IMG/VR virus record: IMGVR_UViG_3300009419_000135
Coordinates: 1-20,051 of that record
Length of the DNA: 20,051 nt
Source of the DNA: a virus
Direction: 5' to 3' (one strand)
Shown here in pieces: positions 8,314 to 19,824 of this stretch; positions within the stretch are counted from its first letter, which is position 1, and every line of letters begins with the position of its first letter. Under the pieces are notes generated by a model. It searched no databases and had not been told where the DNA came from. It saw only the letters and a program-made list of their open reading frames with translations. Made by a program: the position numbers and the translations under genes.

Positions 8314-8322
8314 GGAGTTTTT

Positions 8323-9870
8323 ATGCCCATCAATTTTGGCTTATTGTCAAACGCTGCTCTTACTGGTCTTGGTGAACAGGAAAGGGCAGATCTTCAAAAG
8401 CAAGCCACTACACAGTTCTTGCTTGGCTCTTTGTTAAGCAATGACCCTTCTATGGGCTTGCGCTCTGCTCTTAGTGTTCCTGAGCAATACACAACTGCTC
8501 AAAAAGGGATTACTGAGGCACGACAGAAAGCTTCTGATCGTCAAGCTGTTAGTGATTTTCAGAGTCGTTATTTGCCAACACAGTTCAATGAATCTAGCCC
8601 ACAGTTCACAGGACCAGTAACTCCTGATGTTGAGGCTCGTCAAACTGAATTGGCTACTGCTCGCGCACAGGGTTTGCCTTTCAACATCCAGAATGCTTTG
8701 CAGGATGTGTTGCGACTGCCTCCAACAGTGCAAGGTCCAATCCGAGAGACCATCACTGCTTTGCAACCTCGTGTTCAGGGTGATTTGCTGCTTAATCCGA
8801 ACATGGAAATCTTGCGTGGTTTGCCAACTCAAAAGGATGGCGTTGCAAGTCAATACAACCCATTGACAGGTGGCTTCTCTTCTGCTCCAGTGCAGAACTA
8901 TATGCAGTCCAGAATTATGACTACGCCTCCTGAAACTTCTCCAAACACCATGTTGGTTCCAATGCAGGGTGGTGGTTTTACTCAACAAGCTATCCCAGGT
9001 GCGGCACAAGCAGTTGGAACAATTGAGGGCGCTAAGGCTAGAGGGCAAGCAGAAGGTCAACTTACAGAAGTTCTTGGGGCTGATGGCAGGACTTACAGAG
9101 TGCCCGTCTCTACATTGCTTAATCAGCCAACTGGTCAAGGTGCTGGTCGTACAACAACTCCTCAGGGTGGTCCTGCTGGTGCGGCTTCTAAAATCTCCCC
9201 TGCCCAAGAAGCCATTAACCAAGCAGCCGCCAATCGATACAACGAGTTTACTAAGACCGCACAAGACTCTGCTCTCACTGTTGGAGATCGCAGGCGTTCT
9301 GCTGAGTACCTGTACAACGCTGCTGAACAGCTTGACCCCAATAAAGCTACTGAGTTTTTGTCTGGCGCTGCATCGTATATTCGTGCGATTCCCGGAGTTG
9401 GTGACAAGTTTGATTCTTTTGTTGGCAACGTCAGTATGTTCAATAAGACACGCTCTGAGGGTGTGCTTAAAGGTCTGGAAAGCATCAAGGGTAACGCTAA
9501 CGCATTTGAAGGCTCTATCGTTGATAAGGCCACTACTGGTGTGACAGATCCCAAGTTTGTTACCAAGTACTTGTCTGCAATTGAAATTGCCGCTGCCGAC
9601 AAAGATCTTGCTCGTCAGACTTTCTTGGATAACTACACTGGTGATCCAAAGGGTGTGTTTACTGCTTGGCAGAATTCACCTGACAACCCAAGAATCTACA
9701 ACCATCCAAAAGTCAATCAGTTCTTAACAGAACAGATTAGTTCTTGGCAACGTGGCGGCTCACAGGGCGCTCCAGTTCTCCCTTCTGGCTTTACAGCGGG
9801 GCGTAGCAAGTCAACTGGCGCAGTCCAAATTAAGAAACCCGATGGCTCTATTTTCGTAGTAGGTCAATAA
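8323..9870 (+). CDS. internal virion / DNA ejection-type protein
   Basis: This 515-residue protein starts at ATG 8323 after a strong AAGGAG. The N-terminal region (LLSNAALTGLGEQERADLQ; FLLGSLLSND) is helical. The middle (about 60-270) is Gln/Pro-rich and probably loosely folded. The region from about 300 to 470 is helical (YLYNAAEQLDPNKATEFLSG; YLSAIEIAAADKDLARQTF), and the end has a small strand pair (AVQIKKPDGSIFVVG). It lies between the Gln-rich internal protein and the transglycosylase protein. The three together look like an ejection set delivered with the DNA. No enzyme motif is seen. The role is inferred from order and composition. Confidence 0.76.
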   Translation: MPINFGLLSNAALTGLGEQERADLQKQATTQFLLGSLLSNDPSMGLRSALSVPEQYTTAQKGITEARQKASDRQAVSDFQSRYLPTQFNESSPQFTGPVTPDVEARQTELATARAQGLPFNIQNALQDVLRLPPTVQGPIRETITALQPRVQGDLLLNPNMEILRGLPTQKDGVASQYNPLTGGFSSAPVQNYMQSRIMTTPPETSPNTMLVPMQGGGFTQQAIPGAAQAVGTIEGAKARGQAEGQLTEVLGADGRTYRVPVSTLLNQPTGQGAGRTTTPQGGPAGAASKISPAQEAINQAAANRYNEFTKTAQDSALTVGDRRRSAEYLYNAAEQLDPNKATEFLSGAASYIRAIPGVGDKFDSFVGNVSMFNKTRSEGVLKGLESIKGNANAFEGSIVDKATTGVTDPKFVTKYLSAIEIAAADKDLARQTFLDNYTGDPKGVFTAWQNSPDNPRIYNHPKVNQFLTEQISSWQRGGSQGAPVLPSGFTAGRSKSTGAVQIKKPDGSIFVVGQ

Positions 9871-12080
9871 TGGCAACTAAAGACGAAATCTTTGCATTCG
9901 CTGCTCAAGAAGCAGAGCGCCAAGGGGTTCCTCTGTCTTTGGTGCAAGGCGTTATTGAAGCTGAGTCTGGTGGCAAGTTTGATGCTCGTGGTCCTAAAAC
10001 ACGATCAGGAGAAACTGCGTTTGGTCCAATGCAGTTGATGGCTGGTACTGCCAAAGATCTTGGCGTTAACCGCATGGATTGGGCTGACAACATCCGTGGT
10101 GGCGTGAAGTATCTTGGTCAACTGAGCCAACGCTTTTCTTCACCTGAATTGGTTCTTGCTGCTTACAACGCTGGTCCTGGTAATGTGGAAAAGTATGGTG
10201 GAGTTCCACCATTCAAAGAAACCCAAAACTATGTGAAAAAGGTCCAAAACTTTATGTCTAAACCTACAGACGATGATTTTGTTCCATTTGAGGCGGCTAC
10301 TCAAAATGGACGAGACACTGCAATCGATGTTTCTTTTCCGCAAGGCATGGGTGATCAGCAACCTGCTCAACAGGCAACTGATGATTTTGTTCCGTTCTCT
10401 GCTGCATCAGCGCCAGCGCCTACTGTTCGTCAAACTCCAAATGTCACCAACATTGTTGACAGCGTAAGAGCGCAAGCCAATCAGCCACCTAACCAATTCC
10501 TGCAAGACGTTCGTGCCAGCTTCAATCCTTTGGATGTGTTCCGTGGCAAGACAACCACAGGCCAATTGGCAATGGGTGCTGGTAACCTGATCAATACAGG
10601 CATTCAGAATGTCTTGGGTAGTCTTGGAGTTTCTGATGAGTACATGGGCAGAACTCCTACTGCACCCACTCCTGCTGCTCCTACGCAGTCTATCAGCGAC
10701 ATTATTAGTGGGGTTGCTAAAACGGCTCAGGAACGACCCGGACTGCTTGTTGGTAGTCTCGGTACGGCATTGACTGATCCACTCAACTTAGCTCTTCCTG
10801 GTGGCATTCAGCGTTCATTGGCGACTGCCACACCTAGGGTTGTTGCTCAAGCTGCTCCACGTACTGCCACTGCCGTACAGAATCTTGGTTCTGCTGCTGC
10901 TGGTGGTGCTGTTTCCTCTACTGCTGCTCAGTTGGCAGAAACTGGTACTGTCAACCCTGCTCAGTTGAGTAACGAGATACTTGCTGGCACTTTGCTTGCT
11001 GCTCCTTTTGCTGCTACTGGTGCGGCCACAACACCTCGTCAGGTGGCTCCTTTAACGCAATCACAACAAGTTGCTCAACAAGCTGTTGCTCAGGGTGCAA
11101 CACTGCCGCCTTCTCAAGTCAATCCTACGATTTTGAATCGATTGCTTGAGGGTTTTTCTGGCAAACAACAGACAAGTCAGGTTGCTTCTATCAAGAATCA
11201 GGAAGTCATCAACACTCAGGCTCGTAAGTCTTTGGGTCTTGCTCCTGATACACCGATCACTCCTCAAGTTTTGCAGCAGTACCGGGAAGTCAAAGGTCAA
11301 GCCTACGATGCTTTGAGGTCCAACCCTGCTTACTACACAGATCGCACATTTATTGGTGATGTCAATAAGCGTATTGCTGATTTGCAAAAGCTTGCTAACA
11401 CTACAGATGTCAGTGCTGAACTCAATGTTCTTAACGGACTTAAGCAGCTTAGTTTTAATGGCGATGGTCTGGTTGAGCAAATTAAAAGGTTGCGAGGTGA
11501 TGCTGAAACAAACTTATCATCTGGCGATGCAAGAAATATAAGCTTGGGAAGGGCGCAAAAGTTTGCTTCTCAACAACTTGAAGATCTTGCAGAACGTAAC
11601 CTGCAAAAGTTCAATCAACCCGATGTGATGAGTAACTTTAAACAGGCTCGTCAAGACATTGCCAAGAGCTACACCATTGAGAAATCATTGAATGCGGCCA
11701 CTGGTGATGTATCTGGTGCTAAGTTGGGTCAACGTGCTGCTGCTGGAAAGATTGTTCCTGCTGAACTTCAGGCCGTATCTAACGCTGCTGCTGCCTTTCC
11801 AACTGCCTTCCAGAACGTAGCAAGGATTGGTAGTGTTCCCGGCATAAGCCCACTTGATGTTGGTGCTGCTGGTGTTGCCGCTGCTAGTTCTGGTAACCCA
11901 AGCTTGTTGGCCGCTGTTGCTGGTCGGCCATTGGTTCGTTCTGCAATTACAAGCGCACCCTTCCAGAATCGGATGTTGCCAAACACAACTCCTAGAGTCC
12001 CAGGATTGCTAAACAGGATTACCACCGATCCATTAGCCAACTACGGAATTGGAATGTTGCCTCAGTACGGTGTGCAATGA
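9870..12080 (+). CDS. internal virion protein with N-terminal lytic transglycosylase domain
   Basis: This 736-residue protein starts at ATG 9870, overlapping the previous TAA. Residues 1-130 form a GH23/SLT lytic transglycosylase domain: VIEAESGG with probable catalytic Glu32, FGPMQLMAGTAKDLGV (51-66), then LAAYNAGPGNVEKYGG (96-111) and TQNYVKKV. This domain would cut peptidoglycan to let DNA pass the wall on entry, as in T7 gp16. A linker holds two copies of DDFVPF (135-140, 171-176). A long Ala/Thr/Pro-rich, partly hydrophobic region follows (about 200-420), then helical regions (about 440-640) and an Ala/Gly-rich end. No signal peptide is present, which fits a virion component more than a secreted enzyme. 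Confidence 0.9.
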   Translation: MATKDEIFAFAAQEAERQGVPLSLVQGVIEAESGGKFDARGPKTRSGETAFGPMQLMAGTAKDLGVNRMDWADNIRGGVKYLGQLSQRFSSPELVLAAYNAGPGNVEKYGGVPPFKETQNYVKKVQNFMSKPTDDDFVPFEAATQNGRDTAIDVSFPQGMGDQQPAQQATDDFVPFSAASAPAPTVRQTPNVTNIVDSVRAQANQPPNQFLQDVRASFNPLDVFRGKTTTGQLAMGAGNLINTGIQNVLGSLGVSDEYMGRTPTAPTPAAPTQSISDIISGVAKTAQERPGLLVGSLGTALTDPLNLALPGGIQRSLATATPRVVAQAAPRTATAVQNLGSAAAGGAVSSTAAQLAETGTVNPAQLSNEILAGTLLAAPFAATGAATTPRQVAPLTQSQQVAQQAVAQGATLPPSQVNPTILNRLLEGFSGKQQTSQVASIKNQEVINTQARKSLGLAPDTPITPQVLQQYREVKGQAYDALRSNPAYYTDRTFIGDVNKRIADLQKLANTTDVSAELNVLNGLKQLSFNGDGLVEQIKRLRGDAETNLSSGDARNISLGRAQKFASQQLEDLAERNLQKFNQPDVMSNFKQARQDIAKSYTIEKSLNAATGDVSGAKLGQRAAAGKIVPAELQAVSNAAAAFPTAFQNVARIGSVPGISPLDVGAAGVAAASSGNPSLLAAVAGRPLVRSAITSAPFQNRMLPNTTPRVPGLLNRITTDPLANYGIGMLPQYGVQ

Positions 12081-14978: not shown

Positions 14979-15283
14979 CACGACTCCTTGATAAAGATTC
15001 CTTCTGGTGACAGATGACCCTTGCGGTCTTTAATCTGTTCATAGGCGTGTTTAAAACAGCTTACAAGGTCCAAATCAGCAGTGGCACAACCCATGACAAG
15101 GGTAACCAGAATATCGCCGTATGCGTCAATCATGGCCTCTCTGTCATTGTCAGTGATAGCTTGAATTAGCTCACCAACTTCCTCAAGTGTTTTAATGGCT
15201 TGTGCTCTTGGATTGCTGTGCTGGACAATCTGACGAGCCTCACCCCAGCGAACAACTTCCATTTCAATTTCTGCAAAGCTCAT
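14978..15283 (-). CDS. MazG-like nucleotide pyrophosphohydrolase
   Basis: This leftward gene encodes 101 residues from ATG at 15283, which overlaps the stop of the preceding gene as ATGA; a GTG three codons earlier is possible. The motif TLEEVGELIQAI (32-43) supplies the acidic EExxE triad (Glu34, Glu35, Glu38), and DAYGDILVTLV (53-63) supplies Asp53 and Asp57. Together these make the metal site of MazG/all-alpha NTP pyrophosphohydrolases. The end CFKHAYEQIKDRKGH is typical of phage members. Such enzymes hydrolyse nucleoside triphosphates to monophosphates, cleansing or adjusting nucleotide pools, or lowering the ppGpp alarm response during infection. Substrate here is unknown. Confidence 0.87.
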   Translation of the reverse strand: MSFAEIEMEVVRWGEARQIVQHSNPRAQAIKTLEEVGELIQAITDNDREAMIDAYGDILVTLVMGCATADLDLVSCFKHAYEQIKDRKGHLSPEGIFIKES

Positions 15284-15591
15284 ACTGTCCACTCTCTTTC
15301 ATTACGACCACTGTTTGATTTAACTGTGTTGCCTGTCAAAACGATAAGGCACATGACCTTTAATTCGTTTAAGCGTCTTGCAACTTGATTGCTCTCAAGG
15401 CCAGTTAGCCTTGCAATACCATCTTTGCCAAGCGGCCCGTTCTTTTCTAAGCACTCAAGAATTATCTTGTGATGTTTGGCAGAGACTTCTTTGATGCTGT
15501 CTGCTGCTTCAAACGAGGTTATGGGATCTTCTTTTCTTACCCTTGGAAAAAGGTCCAAAGGATTGCTGCTGAAAAATTCTTTGAAGTTCAT
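15280..15591 (-). CDS. winged-helix DNA-binding protein
   Basis: This leftward gene encodes 103 residues from ATG at 15591, preceded by AAGGA with good spacing. An in-frame ATG at 15669 would add 26 residues and remains possible, since GGGGAAAG lies before it. After EDPITSFEAADSIKEVSAKH (21-40), residues 41-80 form a helix-turn-helix (HHKIILECLEKNGPLGKDGI, then RLTGLESNQVARRLNELK) and 82-100 a wing ending SGRNEREW. This family recurs in phage early regions and may regulate transcription or assist replication. It is the only clear DNA-binding regulator candidate here, so it might act on the paired TAGGG-N5-CCCTA sites; that link is speculation. Confidence 0.83.
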   Translation of the reverse strand: MNFKEFFSSNPLDLFPRVRKEDPITSFEAADSIKEVSAKHHKIILECLEKNGPLGKDGIARLTGLESNQVARRLNELKVMCLIVLTGNTVKSNSGRNEREWTV

Positions 15592-15688: not shown

Positions 15689-15940
15689 TTAAAAGGGCAG
15701 ATCATCATCCCAATTGTCTGATTTGGCTTTTTGGGTTGGCTGGCTTGATTGGCGCGTCTGTTCTTTAGGGCGCACAGACAGGCTGATAAATCCTACATCT
15801 GCCTTGCTCTTCTTTTTCCATCCAGAAATCCAGTATTCAATGCCATCAATATTGATAGAGCCACTCATGTCTGGGTGTTTTTCCTCTGTCTTCTTGTCGT
15901 TCTTGAAAAGTTGACCCCTGTTAGTATTATCGTATTCCAT
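15689..15940 (-). CDS. SSB-like small protein with acidic DDDLPF tail
   Basis: This leftward gene encodes 83 residues from ATG at 15940 after AAGGAACACAAA; an in-frame ATG 20 codons upstream lies inside the HNH gene and is rejected. The N-terminus MEYDNTNRGQLFKNDKK is followed by a beta segment (SGSINIDGIEYWISGW, FISLSVRPKE), a Gln/Ser-rich linker and the end DDDLPF. An acidic tail ending in LPF or IPF is the partner-binding tip of bacterial single-stranded DNA-binding proteins. The body is shorter than a full OB fold, so this may be a small phage ssDNA-binding or tail-mimic protein. Its place beside the annealing protein supports a recombination or replication role. Confidence 0.8.
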   Translation of the reverse strand: MEYDNTNRGQLFKNDKKTEEKHPDMSGSINIDGIEYWISGWKKKSKADVGFISLSVRPKEQTRQSSQPTQKAKSDNWDDDLPF

Positions 15941-16421
15941 TTTGTGTTCCTTTAAATGCCGAAAATTTTCCGTGGTACAAGTCTGTTGCTTCCATTGCAA
16001 CTAAACATGCAAGTTCATAGTCCTCATACGTCCCTAAATAAATAGGGACATAGTTTTTGCATATAGCAACTTTCCATTTTTTATTTGTTGAGTGCCATGA
16101 GACTCCTTTCATTCCAGACGTATTAGTAGTCCTAATTTTTTGATTTGCTGAATTTTCAGCTTTTGTTGCTGATCTTAAATTTTCAATTTTGTTGTTTGAT
16201 CTATTCCCATCAATGTGATCAATAACCTCTGGCAAATAACCATGATGAAACAAAAAAATTAGGCGGTGAATTGGATATGCTTTGTTGCCAATCTTTGCTT
16301 TGACATATCCTTTTGGAGTCAATGTCCCAGCAATTCCAAGATCAATGTCTCGACCTTTTTTGCGGATTAGATTTCCATCTTCATAGTCAAAAATGGATTG
16401 AACAAGTTCTTGCGTAAGCAT
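15927..16421 (-). CDS. HNH homing-type endonuclease with AP2-like DNA-binding domain
   Basis: This leftward gene encodes 164 residues from ATG at 16421 after AGGTGA. Residues 52-86 hold the HNH core: IHRLIFLFHHGYLPE, then VIDHIDGNRSNNKIENLRSA with His69, Asn77 and Asn81. Residues 101-154 form an AP2/integrase-like DNA-binding module (TSGMKGVSWHSTNKKWKVAI, IYLGTYEDYELACLVAMEAT, YHGKFSAF). Such genes are mobile: the enzyme cuts genomes lacking the insertion. The gene is visibly richer in A and T than its neighbours. Its last nine residues are read through the ribosome binding site and start of the SSB-like gene, so its natural 3' end appears joined to host-phage sequence. Confidence 0.93.
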   Translation of the reverse strand: MLTQELVQSIFDYEDGNLIRKKGRDIDLGIAGTLTPKGYVKAKIGNKAYPIHRLIFLFHHGYLPEVIDHIDGNRSNNKIENLRSATKAENSANQKIRTTNTSGMKGVSWHSTNKKWKVAICKNYVPIYLGTYEDYELACLVAMEATDLYHGKFSAFKGTQNGIR

Positions 16422-16509: not shown

Positions 16510-17181
16510 TTAACCCTTTGCATTTTTGAGTGCAGATCGCACAGTGGAATTCAACTGGTTTGACAGATAGACCTTCTGATCTGCTTCCAATTGCTGTTCA
16601 TCAATCATGGCCAAGGCATCAACTGCCTGACCAACCTCGACTAACCCGGTAACGGAGCTTGCAAGTTCTTGCAAAAACTCCTTAACTTCTGCTGGCAGGT
16701 CATCACCAATACCACCACGAGGGCTGATAACGGGTGCTGGACCTTTCTTTGGTACATCGCCCTCTTCTGGCAAATCTTCACCCGCATAGATGTACAGACC
16801 CAAGCCATGCAGCGACAGTGCTTTAGTCATGCAGCGCATGATGGCGGTGTTGACAGCAAAAGAATCGCATTCAACCGTGTATTCTTTCCCGTATTTGTTT
16901 GTTGCTGTGTAGCCTTTTAATGGAATTGATTTGTTAGCGCCATCCATTACAGGCAGTTGACAGGTCATGGGTTTGCCAAACAAAGTAACGGTGACCCAAA
17001 CCATTGCAGTGCCATTGATTTCCATGTAGCACTTGTCGCCAAACATTTCAACCTTGTAAGAAGCCGCAGGATCGGCCTTTAAAGCCTCTGCCCAAGCCCA
17101 AGCCCATGACAGGTACGTTAAATTGTTTTTCTTCTCTGTATGACCGTTTACGTTGGTCTGAAGCAGCTTTTCAATAGACAT
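16510..17181 (-). CDS. single-strand annealing protein, Sak/DUF1071 type
   Basis: This leftward gene encodes 223 residues from ATG at 17181, with GGAAG seven bases upstream. Residues 1-140 match the DUF1071/Sak-type annealing domain: NNLTYLSWAWAWAEALKADP (19-38), YKVEMFGD, an extended strand region (MVWVTVTLFGKPMTCQLPVM), then DSFAVNTAIMRCMTKALSLH (106-125) and GLGLYIYAGEDLP. The C-terminal part (about 150-223) is helical and variable. These Rad52-like proteins coat single strands and anneal them in phage recombination and replication. An SSB-like gene lies two genes downstream. No partner 5'-3' exonuclease is visible in the window. Confidence 0.88.
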   Translation of the reverse strand: MSIEKLLQTNVNGHTEKKNNLTYLSWAWAWAEALKADPAASYKVEMFGDKCYMEINGTAMVWVTVTLFGKPMTCQLPVMDGANKSIPLKGYTATNKYGKEYTVECDSFAVNTAIMRCMTKALSLHGLGLYIYAGEDLPEEGDVPKKGPAPVISPRGGIGDDLPAEVKEFLQELASSVTGLVEVGQAVDALAMIDEQQLEADQKVYLSNQLNSTVRSALKNAKG

Positions 17182-17373: not shown

Positions 17374-17678
17374 TTCATCTCCAATACAAATACACGGGCT
17401 GTGGTCTTGGTGTAGTACATCTGTCCCTTAACAAGCCAAGGCTTTTTATTGCGTATGACGTAAGAGCGCAGTGCCTGTGCAACCTTATCGCAATCTTTCG
17501 GTTGGCATGAGATGGATTTCCCTATGTCAAGATCTTTAAACACAGAATCGTATTTGTAAAACCGAGCAACACGCTTCTTTGGTTGATCAGTAGTAACACG
17601 CAAGGTAGTAAGGTCTACCTCCTTGACGTTACGAAATGGGCTTTTGCCAGCAAAGGTGGTCTTGATTACGTTGCTCAT
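17370..17678 (-). CDS. small basic early protein of unknown function
   Basis: This leftward gene encodes 102 residues from ATG at 17678, overlapping the stop of the upstream 50-residue gene (ATGA). An upstream GTG at 17708 would extend it by ten residues but lies inside that gene. The chain is rich in Lys and Arg (QPKKRVARFYKYDSVFKDLD), with a helix (DKVAQALRSYVIRNKKPWLV) and a beta end (GQMYYTKTTARVFVLEM). It has no Cys cluster and no membrane helix. A DNA-interacting role is possible from charge. I recognise no family. Confidence 0.75.
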   Translation of the reverse strand: MSNVIKTTFAGKSPFRNVKEVDLTTLRVTTDQPKKRVARFYKYDSVFKDLDIGKSISCQPKDCDKVAQALRSYVIRNKKPWLVKGQMYYTKTTARVFVLEMK

Positions 17679-17827
17679 GATTTTGTTACCGGAGTTGCGA
17701 GGAGCCACTTGTCACCCAGGAAGCGAATGGACTTGACCCACTGCTTGCAGTTATGACGTTGGATGTGTGCTGGAACACCATTGACGCAGAACAACTTCCT
17801 TACTTTCCTTAGTGCTTGAACATTCAT
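17675..17827 (-). CDS. first gene of leftward early operon (50 residues, unknown)
   Basis: ATG at 17827 follows a very strong AAAAAAGGAG with good spacing, the best ribosome binding site in the region. The frame runs 50 codons to TGA, overlapping the next start as ATGA. The product is strongly basic (MNVQALRKVRKLFCVNGVPA, then a HNCKQW segment and RFLGDKWLLAT) with two Cys. Being the first gene after the divergent control region, it should be among the earliest expressed. Its small size and charge would suit a nucleic-acid-binding or host-take-over peptide. No family is recognised with certainty. Confidence 0.75.
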   Translation of the reverse strand: MNVQALRKVRKLFCVNGVPAHIQRHNCKQWVKSIRFLGDKWLLATPVTKS

Positions 17828-17884
17828 TGATATCTCCTTTTTTGTTAAAGCAGATGTGAATGTATCAAGCTTTTTATGGTGTTT

Positions 17885-17904
17885 ATATAGGGATATACCC
17901 TAAT
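17885..17904 (-). promoter_or_regulatory. 20-base operator-like element, copy 1 (divergent early region)
   Basis: On the minus strand the element reads ATTAGGGTATATCCCTATAT. Its centre is the inverted repeat TAGGG-N5-CCCTA (17888-17902). It lies in the 111-base gap between the two early operons, 57 bases before the leftward ATG at 17827 and 36 bases before the rightward ATG at 17939. A second copy, matching 19 of 20 positions, is at 19464-19483. The AT-rich surroundings suit a promoter, but no convincing -35/-10 pair can be assigned, so it may be an operator, an activator site or a phage-specific promoter. Confidence 0.7.
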
Positions 17905-17938
17905 AGATTTTTCTGTTTTCTTGCGTTAGGCTCATCCC

Positions 17939-18130
17939 ATGAGCCACCAAACACACGAATTTGCTTTAGCTTACGAGCTAATAGTCCATGCCACCGATCA
18001 ACTGGAGCCATTGCTGCACCCAGATGATCTAGAAGCTGGTATTGTTGCGGTCCTAGCAACAGCACTAGAGATTGCTTCCAAGAAGCGACTAAAGGAATTA
18101 CATGAAATCTACCAAGCCAAGCCCATTTGA
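17939..18130 (+). CDS. first gene of rightward early operon (63 residues, unknown)
   Basis: The frame starts at ATG 17939. No clear ribosome binding site precedes it (GCTCATCCC), which is unusual for this genome and may mean leaderless or weak translation. The protein is helical and acidic in the first half (FALAYELIVHATDQLEPLLH) and ends in basic residues (LEIASKKRLKELHEIYQAKP). It has no membrane segment and no Cys. The next gene begins 29 bases before its stop with a strong AAAGGA site. Function unknown. The reading frame is supported by the overlap and by its regular helical pattern. Confidence 0.62.
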   Translation: MSHQTHEFALAYELIVHATDQLEPLLHPDDLEAGIVAVLATALEIASKKRLKELHEIYQAKPI

Positions 18131-18361: not shown

Positions 18362-19174
18362 ATGCATTTTTATCCGCATCATATAGGCGACTATAGGTCT
18401 GCCACCATGCATCTCTCAAACGAGGAAGACTTGGCTTATCGCCGCCTTCTGGAGATGTATTACGACACTGAACAACCAATTCCAGACGACTTGCAACTTG
18501 TATCAAGAAGGATACGGGTAACGCCTGAAGCCCTTCTTTTTGTCCTCCAGGAGTTCTTTGTACTGGTCAACAAAGGCTGGAAGAACAAACGCTGTGATCT
18601 TGTGATCAATGACTATCATGAGATGGCTGAGAAAAACCGTAGAAATGGCAAAAAAGGTGGTCGTCCGAAGAAGCCTAAAGACGAGCAAGAAAACCCATTG
18701 GGTTTCCAGTCGGTTCCCAGTGGGATGCCAGTGGTAACCCAAGTGAAAGCTAACCAAGAACCAATAACCATAAACCATAAACCAAAGAGAGAGAGCGCAA
18801 CTAGCGTTGCTTGCCCACCTGATGTTGGAGAACAGGTTTGGCAAGATTGGTTGTCACTCAGGAAAACAAAAAAGGCAGCGGTTACACCGACCGTCATTGA
18901 TGGCGCAAGGAAAGAGGCTGAGAAGCTTGGCTGGCCTTTGGAAAAGTTTTTAGTTGAGTGGTGTACTCGTGGAAGCCAAGGATTAAAAGCTGAGTGGGTA
19001 GCGCCTAAACCTACTTTTGCCCAACAAGCTGCTGACGTTGCACGAACAACAGTTCCTGCCCAACATTCCGGTCCTGACCCTGTGTTGCTTCAGATCGCTG
19101 CTGACAGACAAAAGGCTGCTCCAATGCCTGACCACATCCGTCAACAAATCAACCAAGTATTGAGGAAGGCATGA
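18362..19174 (+). CDS. DUF1376-domain replication protein
   Basis: This 270-residue protein starts at ATG 18362. Residues 1-90 form a DUF1376 (YdaU-type) domain: MHFYPHHIGDYRSATMHLSN, then EEDLAYRRLLEMYYDTEQPI, and a helix-rich part ending WKNKRCDLVINDYHEM. A basic linker follows (KNRRNGKKGGRPKKPK), then a Pro/Gln-rich region. From about 155 to 215 is a second small helical domain (VWQDWLSLRKTKKAAVTPTV, ARKEAEKLGWPLEKFLVEWC) seen at the C-terminus of related phage replication proteins. The family is thought to act in replication initiation, often as origin-binding protein. The leader upstream may control its translation. Confidence 0.87.
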   Translation: MHFYPHHIGDYRSATMHLSNEEDLAYRRLLEMYYDTEQPIPDDLQLVSRRIRVTPEALLFVLQEFFVLVNKGWKNKRCDLVINDYHEMAEKNRRNGKKGGRPKKPKDEQENPLGFQSVPSGMPVVTQVKANQEPITINHKPKRESATSVACPPDVGEQVWQDWLSLRKTKKAAVTPTVIDGARKEAEKLGWPLEKFLVEWCTRGSQGLKAEWVAPKPTFAQQAADVARTTVPAQHSGPDPVLLQIAADRQKAAPMPDHIRQQINQVLRKA

Positions 19175-19287
19175 GCCATTACCAAGCAATGCAAATACTG
19201 GACAAGGTGCGTGAAGGAGTGCCTTACCCAGCACACATCATTGACCAAGCACTCCGATTAACTGGTGACCTGGATGAAGCCAACTGA
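19171..19287 (+). CDS. small early protein (38 residues)
   Basis: ATG 19171 overlaps the stop of the replication gene (ATGA), with GAGGAAGG just before it. The 38-residue frame gives two short helices (MSHYQAMQILDKVREGVPYP, then a part ending LTGDLDEAN). Helix-turn-helix-like size and acidic end are notable, but no binding motif is clear. I recall similar short proteins after replication genes in related phages. The next gene begins 14 bases before its stop. Confidence 0.68.
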   Translation: MSHYQAMQILDKVREGVPYPAHIIDQALRLTGDLDEAN

Positions 19288-19468
19288 TAGCGACCAATAC
19301 ATGATTGAGCTTGGTGAGGCCAGAGTTCTGTATGGAACGTATCAGTCAACCAAGCAAAAGGTCTTAACGCCTGTTCGGATTAAGTGGTTGACAAAGATGT
19401 ATGGCCCTGGTTCTGCTGAAAGAATCAGGGGTTACATGATCAAGCTTCAAAACGGTGAGTTAGATTAG
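19274..19468 (+). CDS. small early protein (64 residues), unknown
   Basis: The frame is read from ATG 19274, within the end of the previous gene; a GTG at 19265 would add three residues. The protein is basic in its second half (STKQKVLTPVRIKWLTKMYG, then GSAERIRGYMIKLQNGELD) and has no Cys. The pattern of LTPVR.KWL..MYG..AERIR.Y. suggests a small helical fold common in phages after DUF1376 genes, but I cannot name it. Its stop codon TAG (19466-19468) is the first half of the second operator-like element. Confidence 0.7.
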   Translation: MKPTDSDQYMIELGEARVLYGTYQSTKQKVLTPVRIKWLTKMYGPGSAERIRGYMIKLQNGELD

Positions 19469-19483
19469 GGTAAATCCCTATAT
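19464..19483 (+). promoter_or_regulatory. 20-base operator-like element, copy 2
   Basis: On the plus strand the element reads ATTAGGGTAAATCCCTATAT, differing from copy 1 at one position. The inverted repeat TAGGG-N5-CCCTA is at 19466-19480. It lies 59 bases before the ATG at 19543, against 57 bases for copy 1 and its leftward gene, and in the same orientation. It overlaps the stop codon of the previous gene. The 74-base gap to the next gene is AT-rich, suggesting a second early promoter here. Confidence 0.7.
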
Positions 19484-19542
19484 TAATTTGCTTTATCTCA
19501 ATAAATAATTGTCTTGCCAATGACGGCATAAAAGGAAACGCA

Positions 19543-19824
19543 ATGAAAGTCAAAACCACTATCCACATCCACTACACCCAATTCTCTTGGGAAGAAAAAG
19601 GCAATTACGAAGTTTTTTCTTTCAAGGCAGAGAACACTGAACAACGCACCTACGTGTGTGATCAGGAGATTGAGATTGAAGTGCCGGACAACTACGATCC
19701 TCGCGCACAGAAGATTGCAGCTTTGCAAGCCAAAAAGGAAAAGATTATGGCCGACTACCAAAAGACTGTGACCGAGATCAACACTAGGATTTCCAAACTT
19801 CAAGCTATTGAGTACACATCATGA
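19543..19824 (+). CDS. small early protein with C-terminal coiled coil (93 residues)
   Basis: The gene starts at ATG 19543 after AAAAGGAAACGC, a strong ribosome binding site. The first half is beta-rich (MKVKTTIHIHYTQFSW, YEVFSFKAEN, QEIEIEVPDNYD). The second half is a coiled coil (KIAALQAKKEKIMADYQKTV, ending ISKLQAIEYTS). Such a plan suggests an oligomer with a small beta head. It is the first gene after the second 20-base element, so probably starts its own transcript. It overlaps the next gene by ATGA. Family unknown. Confidence 0.78.
   Translation: MKVKTTIHIHYTQFSWEEKGNYEVFSFKAENTEQRTYVCDQEIEIEVPDNYDPRAQKIAALQAKKEKIMADYQKTVTEINTRISKLQAIEYTS

Follow-up and report, generated by a model that had tools for sequence, protein, structure and literature searches.

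A promoter box of probable activator type recurs in many different uncultured phages

In the DNA analyzed here, the 20,051 nucleotides of IMG/VR virus record IMGVR_UViG_3300009419_000135 (hereafter the window), two predicted early operons diverge from a gap that carries a 20-base element, and a near copy of this element lies further to the right. The locus raises the question of what these elements do and which protein, of the phage or of its host, would recognize them. A sequence-only reading of the window had proposed that they are binding sites that set early transcription, with a phage winged-helix protein or a host regulator as the binder.

Two boxes and the genes around them

The two 20-mers, box 1 at positions 17885..17904 on the minus strand (ATTAGGGTATATCCCTATAT) and box 2 at 19464..19483 on the plus strand (ATTAGGGTAAATCCCTATAT), share the form ATTAGGGTA[T/A]ATCCCTATAT and are one base apart; a direct check bore out their places, strands, and single difference as first described. 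Both contain TAGGG-N5-CCCTA, whose exact form occurs nowhere else in the window, and with two mismatches allowed this shorter pattern gave four matches, a number not above chance. When up to three mismatches were allowed in the full 20-mer, box 1 and box 2 were again the sole copies in the window, and none of 100 shuffles of the window yielded two copies, as expected from the earlier claim of an agreement beyond chance. The remark that no other copy was noticed holds within the window and not for other phages: the 20-mer ATTAGGGTAWATCCCTATAT was found in 21 IMG/VR stretches with several kinds of surroundings, and the looser pattern TTAGGGTNNATCCCTAT, a 17-base core, in at least 119 stretches, with one contig listed twice. 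The proposed dyad symmetry applies to the outer arms, to which palindromy is confined, and not to the longer element, which is directional (TTAGGGTWWATCCCTAT). The location of the copies in two intergenic gaps was nearly right, except that the open reading frame at 19265-19468 ends inside box 2, its TAG stop codon being at 19466-19468.

Box 1 lies between the divergent operons, and the same 20-mer is present in other phages. On its leftward side, a predicted -10 hexamer TACATT (17859..17864, minus strand) stands 22 bp from the 17-base core, with a transcription start predicted near 17852, and TACATT is found at the same distance from the box in two other phages (L012 and L014). The first leftward gene (17675..17827, minus strand) encodes 50 aa without a detected family and has look-alikes, identified by eye, near the box in L012/L014 and in L021. 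The leftward operon also encodes a Sak-type single-strand annealing protein (16510..17181, minus strand; Pfam SSAP_Sak, 1.9e-36; phrog_659) and an HNH endonuclease (15927-16421; HNH_3), the latter flanked by the Sak gene on one side and the gene at 15689-15955 on the other. The winged-helix protein (15280..15591, minus strand; phrog_1123) matched Pfam HTH_24 with an E-value of 3.3e-4, its score of 20.6 bits falling short of the curated cut-off (21.9).

On the rightward side, a predicted -10 hexamer TAGGCT (17927..17932, plus strand) faces away from box 1 at 23 bp from the core. The ATG of the first rightward gene (17939..18130, plus strand; 63 aa, no family found) follows only 6 nt later, so that the rightward mRNA is predicted to be leaderless; box 1 apparently faces a promoter that gives a leaderless early mRNA for a small gene. 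This operon includes a DUF1376 protein (18362..19174, plus strand) that matches phage primosomal and replication-initiation families. Box 2 is followed at 20 bp from the core by a weak candidate -10 hexamer TAAATA (19502..19507, plus strand), which fails a strict TANNNT test, and then by a gene for 93 aa (19543..19824, plus strand) from an uncharacterized family (phrog_2479), whose look-alike in L021 directly adjoins the box there.

Recurrence of the box and its distance from the -10 element

Among the TTAGGGTNNATCCCTAT matches listed, the two free centre bases were AA, AT, or TT at 128 of 140 sites, a count that left out the window copies (L001 and L002), the genome loci L024-L026, and L141-L146. 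A stop-free frame of at least 100 codons ran over 14 of these 128 sites versus 11 of the 12 listed sites with other centres, and because the latter are mostly under long frames, other-centre sites served as a chance control. Variants at the ends were also found in IMG/VR, TTAGGG..CCCTAA in at least 120 stretches and ATAGGG..CCCTAT in 109. Sites of the form ATAGGGT[TT/AA]ATCCCTAT behave as the main type, and TTAGGG..CCCTAA sites, which are mixed, were omitted from the spacing claim because few were left after pruning. The comparison thus involved a main type (TTAGGG..CCCTAT with an AA, AT, or TT centre), a second type (ATAGGG..CCCTAT with a TT or AA centre), and controls whose centre contains C or G; for the spacing and -35 counts, sites with similar or short flanks were removed beforehand. 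Among the non-redundant sites listed, no stop-free 100-codon frame covered 46 of 52 main-type and 24 of 30 ATAGGG-type sites, versus 8 of 40 controls. In the majority of scanned contigs, exact copies with an A/T centre number just one or two and often separate divergent operons; box 2 and several of its relatives follow one gene and precede the next on the same strand.

Many of the sites share a fixed distance to a -10 element. With similar flanks removed and positions counted from the 17-base core, TANNNT was found at +20 to +24 in 34 of 52 main-type, 16 of 30 ATAGGG-type, and 3 of 40 control sites. In the narrower interval of +21 to +23, it was present at 29 of the 52 non-redundant main-type sites listed (6.1 expected from shuffled flanks) and at 14 of 30 ATAGGG-type sites (2.6 expected), versus 3 of 40 control sites (3.9 expected). 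The excess persisted under the strictest pruning of flanks, with 19 of 38 sites of the main type (4.1 expected), 8 of 23 of the ATAGGG type (2.1), and 3 of 34 controls (2.8). For the promoters with this spacing (class 1), the best -35 hexamer at 16-18 bp scored below 3 bits in 36 of 41 cases; five reached 3 bits (background 7.3%), three of them with a perfect TTGACA, and the median score of 0.45 was above the background of -0.59. In a second, smaller class, the box precedes a promoter with a TTG-type -35 element and is approximately one helical turn more distant (TTG at +6 to +10 plus a -10 at +30 to +34); it accounts for 8 of 52 sites versus 1.0 expected, three of which are also class 1. Overall, 34 of the 52 main-type sites belong to at least one class, and the other 18 to none.

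With the -10 element set at -12, the class-1 box is centred at approximately -42 to -44 and its core covers approximately -51 to -35, so that across the site set a box at fixed distance overlaps or abuts the -35 region, box 2 departing from the strict form. From the fixed spacing and the poor or missing -35 hexamers we infer an activator box in the class II position, and thus activation rather than repression. The element is a widespread promoter box of predicted activator type in many different uncultured phages. Its placement mostly outside long reading frames, its recurrence in phages, and the fixed distance to the -10 element strongly support the proposal of a binding site that sets early transcription from the divergent operons.

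The promoter that faces away from the box has a narrower distribution. A rightward promoter of this kind (TANNNT at +21 to +23 and an ATG 6-7 nt on) was predicted in six related phages among 38 records, namely G277 (a near-twin that stands for the window), G278, G282, G293, L021, and MW202710 (the same as L141), the last of which has a degenerate box (TTAGTGAAAACCCTGAT) whose pattern was added by hand. When the MW202710 pattern was excluded, there were five matches versus 2, 0, 0, 0, 0, and 0 at six offsets of equal width. Across the site types, an opposite-facing TANNNT at +20 to +24 was found at 8 of 54 main-type, 3 of 30 ATAGGG-type, and 5 of 41 control sites. The facing-away promoter is a trait of the window's group and no general property of the box.

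Cultured and named phages gave few matches. Nine named phage records were scanned with tolerance for one mismatch in the arms: no match was found in Sinorhizobium phiM5, Pelagibacter HTVC106P, C72C1, the Octadecabacter virus, or MW202711, Methylophilales phage Venkman and MW202496 had chance-like matches, and MW202879 and MW202462 had one match each with promoter-like spacing by eye. A blastn search with 39 bases against cultured phages returned weak matches only, MW202879 among them. Searches with the lysozyme, stabilisation, portal, and Sak proteins and a terminase of the second phage group (see below) returned uncultured Manatee Spring records at the top, followed by phages of many hosts. 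Among the open-licence full-text matches listed, there was no description of the box. In L003, L004, L005, and their relatives, repeated TTCTACA/TGTAGAA words flank the box in the stretch that separates a Cro-like gene from the leftward operon, and these may be sites of a second regulator. Two contigs of the second phage group (G285 at 28360-30662 and G300 at 8316-11077, in contig coordinates) carry clusters of looser boxes (TTAGGGTAAACACCTAT and others), several of which run directly into TTGAC.

Candidate binders and alternative explanations

The 20-mers are probably class-II-type activator boxes at sigma70-type promoters, with a host regulator as the more likely binder. An activator, probably a dimer, would contact the TAGGG and CCCTA arms of each 20-mer and, centred near -42/-43, would touch RNA polymerase at a promoter that has a -10 element and usually no good -35. 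Box 1 would then act in both directions, firing the leftward operon for recombination and the rightward one for replication at the same time, and box 2 would fire the next block of rightward genes. The absence of a strict -10 element in place at box 2 and the sites outside both spacing classes are counterpoints to this reading.

The chief alternative, which we regard as rather less probable, is an early activator encoded by the phages themselves, for example a small protein missed by the sequence search that acts from the same class II position. Such a protein would agree with the near absence of the strict phage box from bacterial genomes (see below) and with the small genes, with look-alikes in other phages, that adjoin the box in the window's group. 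It fits less well with the distribution of phage protein families. When the window and 33 contigs were split into ORFs for family comparison, 24 of these 34 phage records were linked by common families and two stood alone. A second group of eight box-bearing contigs (G281, G285, G292, G296, G300, G302, G303, and G312) had no family in common with the window; other members do link the two groups by some common families. The widest protein family was present in 12 of the 16 contigs of at least 24 kb and none in all 16; these long contigs are possibly incomplete, and the absence of a phage gene is therefore weak evidence.

The winged-helix protein proposed as binder by the sequence-only reading has relatives in 15 of the 34 box-bearing records and 7 of the 16 long contigs, which may be partial, or 6 of 13 when G305, G307, and G309, whose sites resemble chance matches inside genes, are set aside. 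No relative was found in G279, which carries the exact 20-mer of box 1, and the protein was rejected on this distribution, since it was not found wherever the box is. The Mor family (PF08765) was found in 0 of 40 box-bearing records, which may be partial, and a home-made, possibly insensitive GerE model built from five proteins of the bacterial genome G367 had no match in the 34 records. The lack of a family in all long contigs and of a GerE match favours a host protein without proving it, and of the two kinds of binder first considered, the host option fits better. In the second phage group, G303 (20723-21328) and its relatives encode a protein that, by reading of its translation, resembles sigma70 region 2.

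We next describe box-like sites in bacterial genomes. The exact 18-mer TTAGGGTAWATCCCTATA, a pattern that does not include the common TT centre, occurred in 3 stretches of the genome collection; thus, no bacterium in this collection uses the exact sequence often. A motif common in Gammaproteobacteria was rejected, as TAGGGTWWATCCCTA was found in 3 of 274 genomes. The pattern TAGGGNNNNNCCCTA was present in 43 of 150 genomes in the order of G227 and in 10 of 32 in another order. As a general feature of G227's order, TAGGG-N5-CCCTA was rejected because the counts were mostly below the backwards control and came partly from tRNA-Ser genes. Matches of the TAGGGTATTACCCTA type are a trap in genome counts of the motif, as ARAGORN placed a tRNA-Ser over the match in seven of eight loci (L445, L447-L450, L452, and L461, not L446). 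The outlier in this order was G367, with 6 sites versus 1 in the backwards control.

The pattern TAGGGNWWWNCCCTA was found in 71 of 399 genomes of G227's order and, within G367's family, in 163 of 268 genomes with up to 6 sites each, versus 30 for the backwards control as counted among the matches listed, and some of the other matches may be tRNA genes. Beside G367, two genomes stood out with 5 sites each, G452 from the same family and G587, at whose inspected sites no common gene theme was visible. The 6 exact TAGGG-N5-CCCTA sites of G367 are all outside the listed frames and, as read by eye, neighbour cstA, putA, gltI, a CoA-transferase gene, and genes for CitMHS-like and SLC13-like transporters. 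By eye, cstA has TAAAAT at +22, gltI has TAGAAT at +22, and putA has TATATC at +21, and the other three are not clearly at +22. In genomes related to G367, one site, again by eye, has a kdpA-like gene on one side and, at a distance of approximately 500 bp on the other, a sodium:solute-symporter-like gene, another precedes a small gene with TTGCTT and TATAAT at second-class spacing, and a third separates a TetR-like gene from one that runs divergently; some of these sites may belong to other regulators. Five bacterial loci (L506, L510, L519, L525, and L532) have a double-box promoter with the second box over TATAAT, which in L506 and L519 precedes a gene for a small protein, MSELTLN....

Box-like sites, some of them with the phage spacing, are present in G367 and its family; the exact phage form is nearly absent from genomes, and this family need not be the phages' host. 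Five GerE matches were found in G367, two of them in full-length response regulators. For the binder, we rank a host regulator above a phage protein as the moderately probable case, and our best guess, held with low confidence, is a NarL/FixJ-type response regulator for carbon use.

Less probable than a phage-encoded activator, and unlikely in our judgment, is an operator of the lambda OR/OL type at which a repressor would block the early promoters. The box does adjoin the -35 place, where repressors also bind, three class-1 sites have a perfect -35 hexamer, and the L003-type phages encode, by reading of the translation, a Cro-like protein beside the box. On the other hand, most class-1 promoters (the 36 of 41 below 3 bits) have no -35 element able to work unaided, a spacing fixed at 21-23 bp is unneeded for repression, and the scanned proteins, all from the right part of the window, included none named as an integrase or phage repressor. 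A replication, packaging, or recombination signal without a promoter role would account for the palindromic arms and for the low number of exact copies in most contigs, one or two, often placed where operons diverge; it is highly improbable given the fixed -10 spacing in two site types and its absence in the controls, and given that box 2 and several relatives lie between same-strand genes. Chance or low-complexity similarity, which can be seen in the other-centre sites under long frames, is a negligible explanation for the set as a whole in view of the window shuffles, the three centres shared by nearly all listed sites, and the spacing statistics.

Resemblance to known regulatory systems and biological meaning

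A class-II-type activator box read by a host regulator has several parallels. The ACTU motif of CrbR in Pseudomonas fluorescens is an imperfect inverted repeat of 17 bp that spans -52 to -36 and immediately precedes an RpoD promoter (PMC5715377). It is required for activation and occurs at few sites, including those of pflu0110 (acyl-CoA hydrolase) and actP, in connection with acetate use (PMC5715377). The position just upstream of the RpoD promoter given there matches that of the box, whose core is at approximately -51 to -35, and the chromosomal box-like site near a sodium:solute-symporter-like gene is a further point of likeness. The core letters differ: as compared by eye with Table 4 of PMC5715377, those of ACTU are GAC/GTC-like (for example, TACGACTAAAGTCTAAA), whereas the box has GGG/CCC and a spacer one base longer. 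On this mismatch of core letters, CrbR itself was rejected as the binder. The FixJ site of the fixK promoter, quoted as TAAGTAATTTCCCTTA in PMC4999443, is a site of a NarL/FixJ-type response regulator with an arm, TTCCCTTA, like that of the box; as quoted, arm and spacer otherwise differ. By reading of the translation, G367 encodes a FixL/FixJ-like pair.

Phage promoters offer two further comparisons. The Mor and C activators of phage Mu act from a dyad box near -43, and their promoters have a -10 and lack a -35 element. The position of the dyad box and the missing -35 are similar here, but a binder of this family was rejected because no Mor-family gene was detected in the box-bearing records, partial as these may be. 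Zeng and Chisholm reportedly described in 2012 cyanophage genes under the control of the host PhoBR system. Cyanophage genes under host PhoBR have promoters that bear a host two-component box, with a known regulator and gel-shift tests (PMC10976474). The cyanophage case is a precedent for phages that exploit host regulators; the box of the window would drive early operons.

A broader reading, which we offer tentatively and consider doubtful, is that many phages have converged on one operator of their hosts' global carbon-status response regulator, so that a host two-component system would switch on the early genes (bidirectionally from a single box in the case of the window's group), and the phage box would be a stronger, more uniform version of scattered host sites. 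The box is a common mark of predicted early promoters in two or more groups of uncultured phages, and one of these groups has no detected family in common with the window. If a host regulator does bind it, the onset of phage development would be tied to the nutritional state of the host, and the box would predict the promoters that fire first and provide a sequence handle that links uncultured phages to their hosts.
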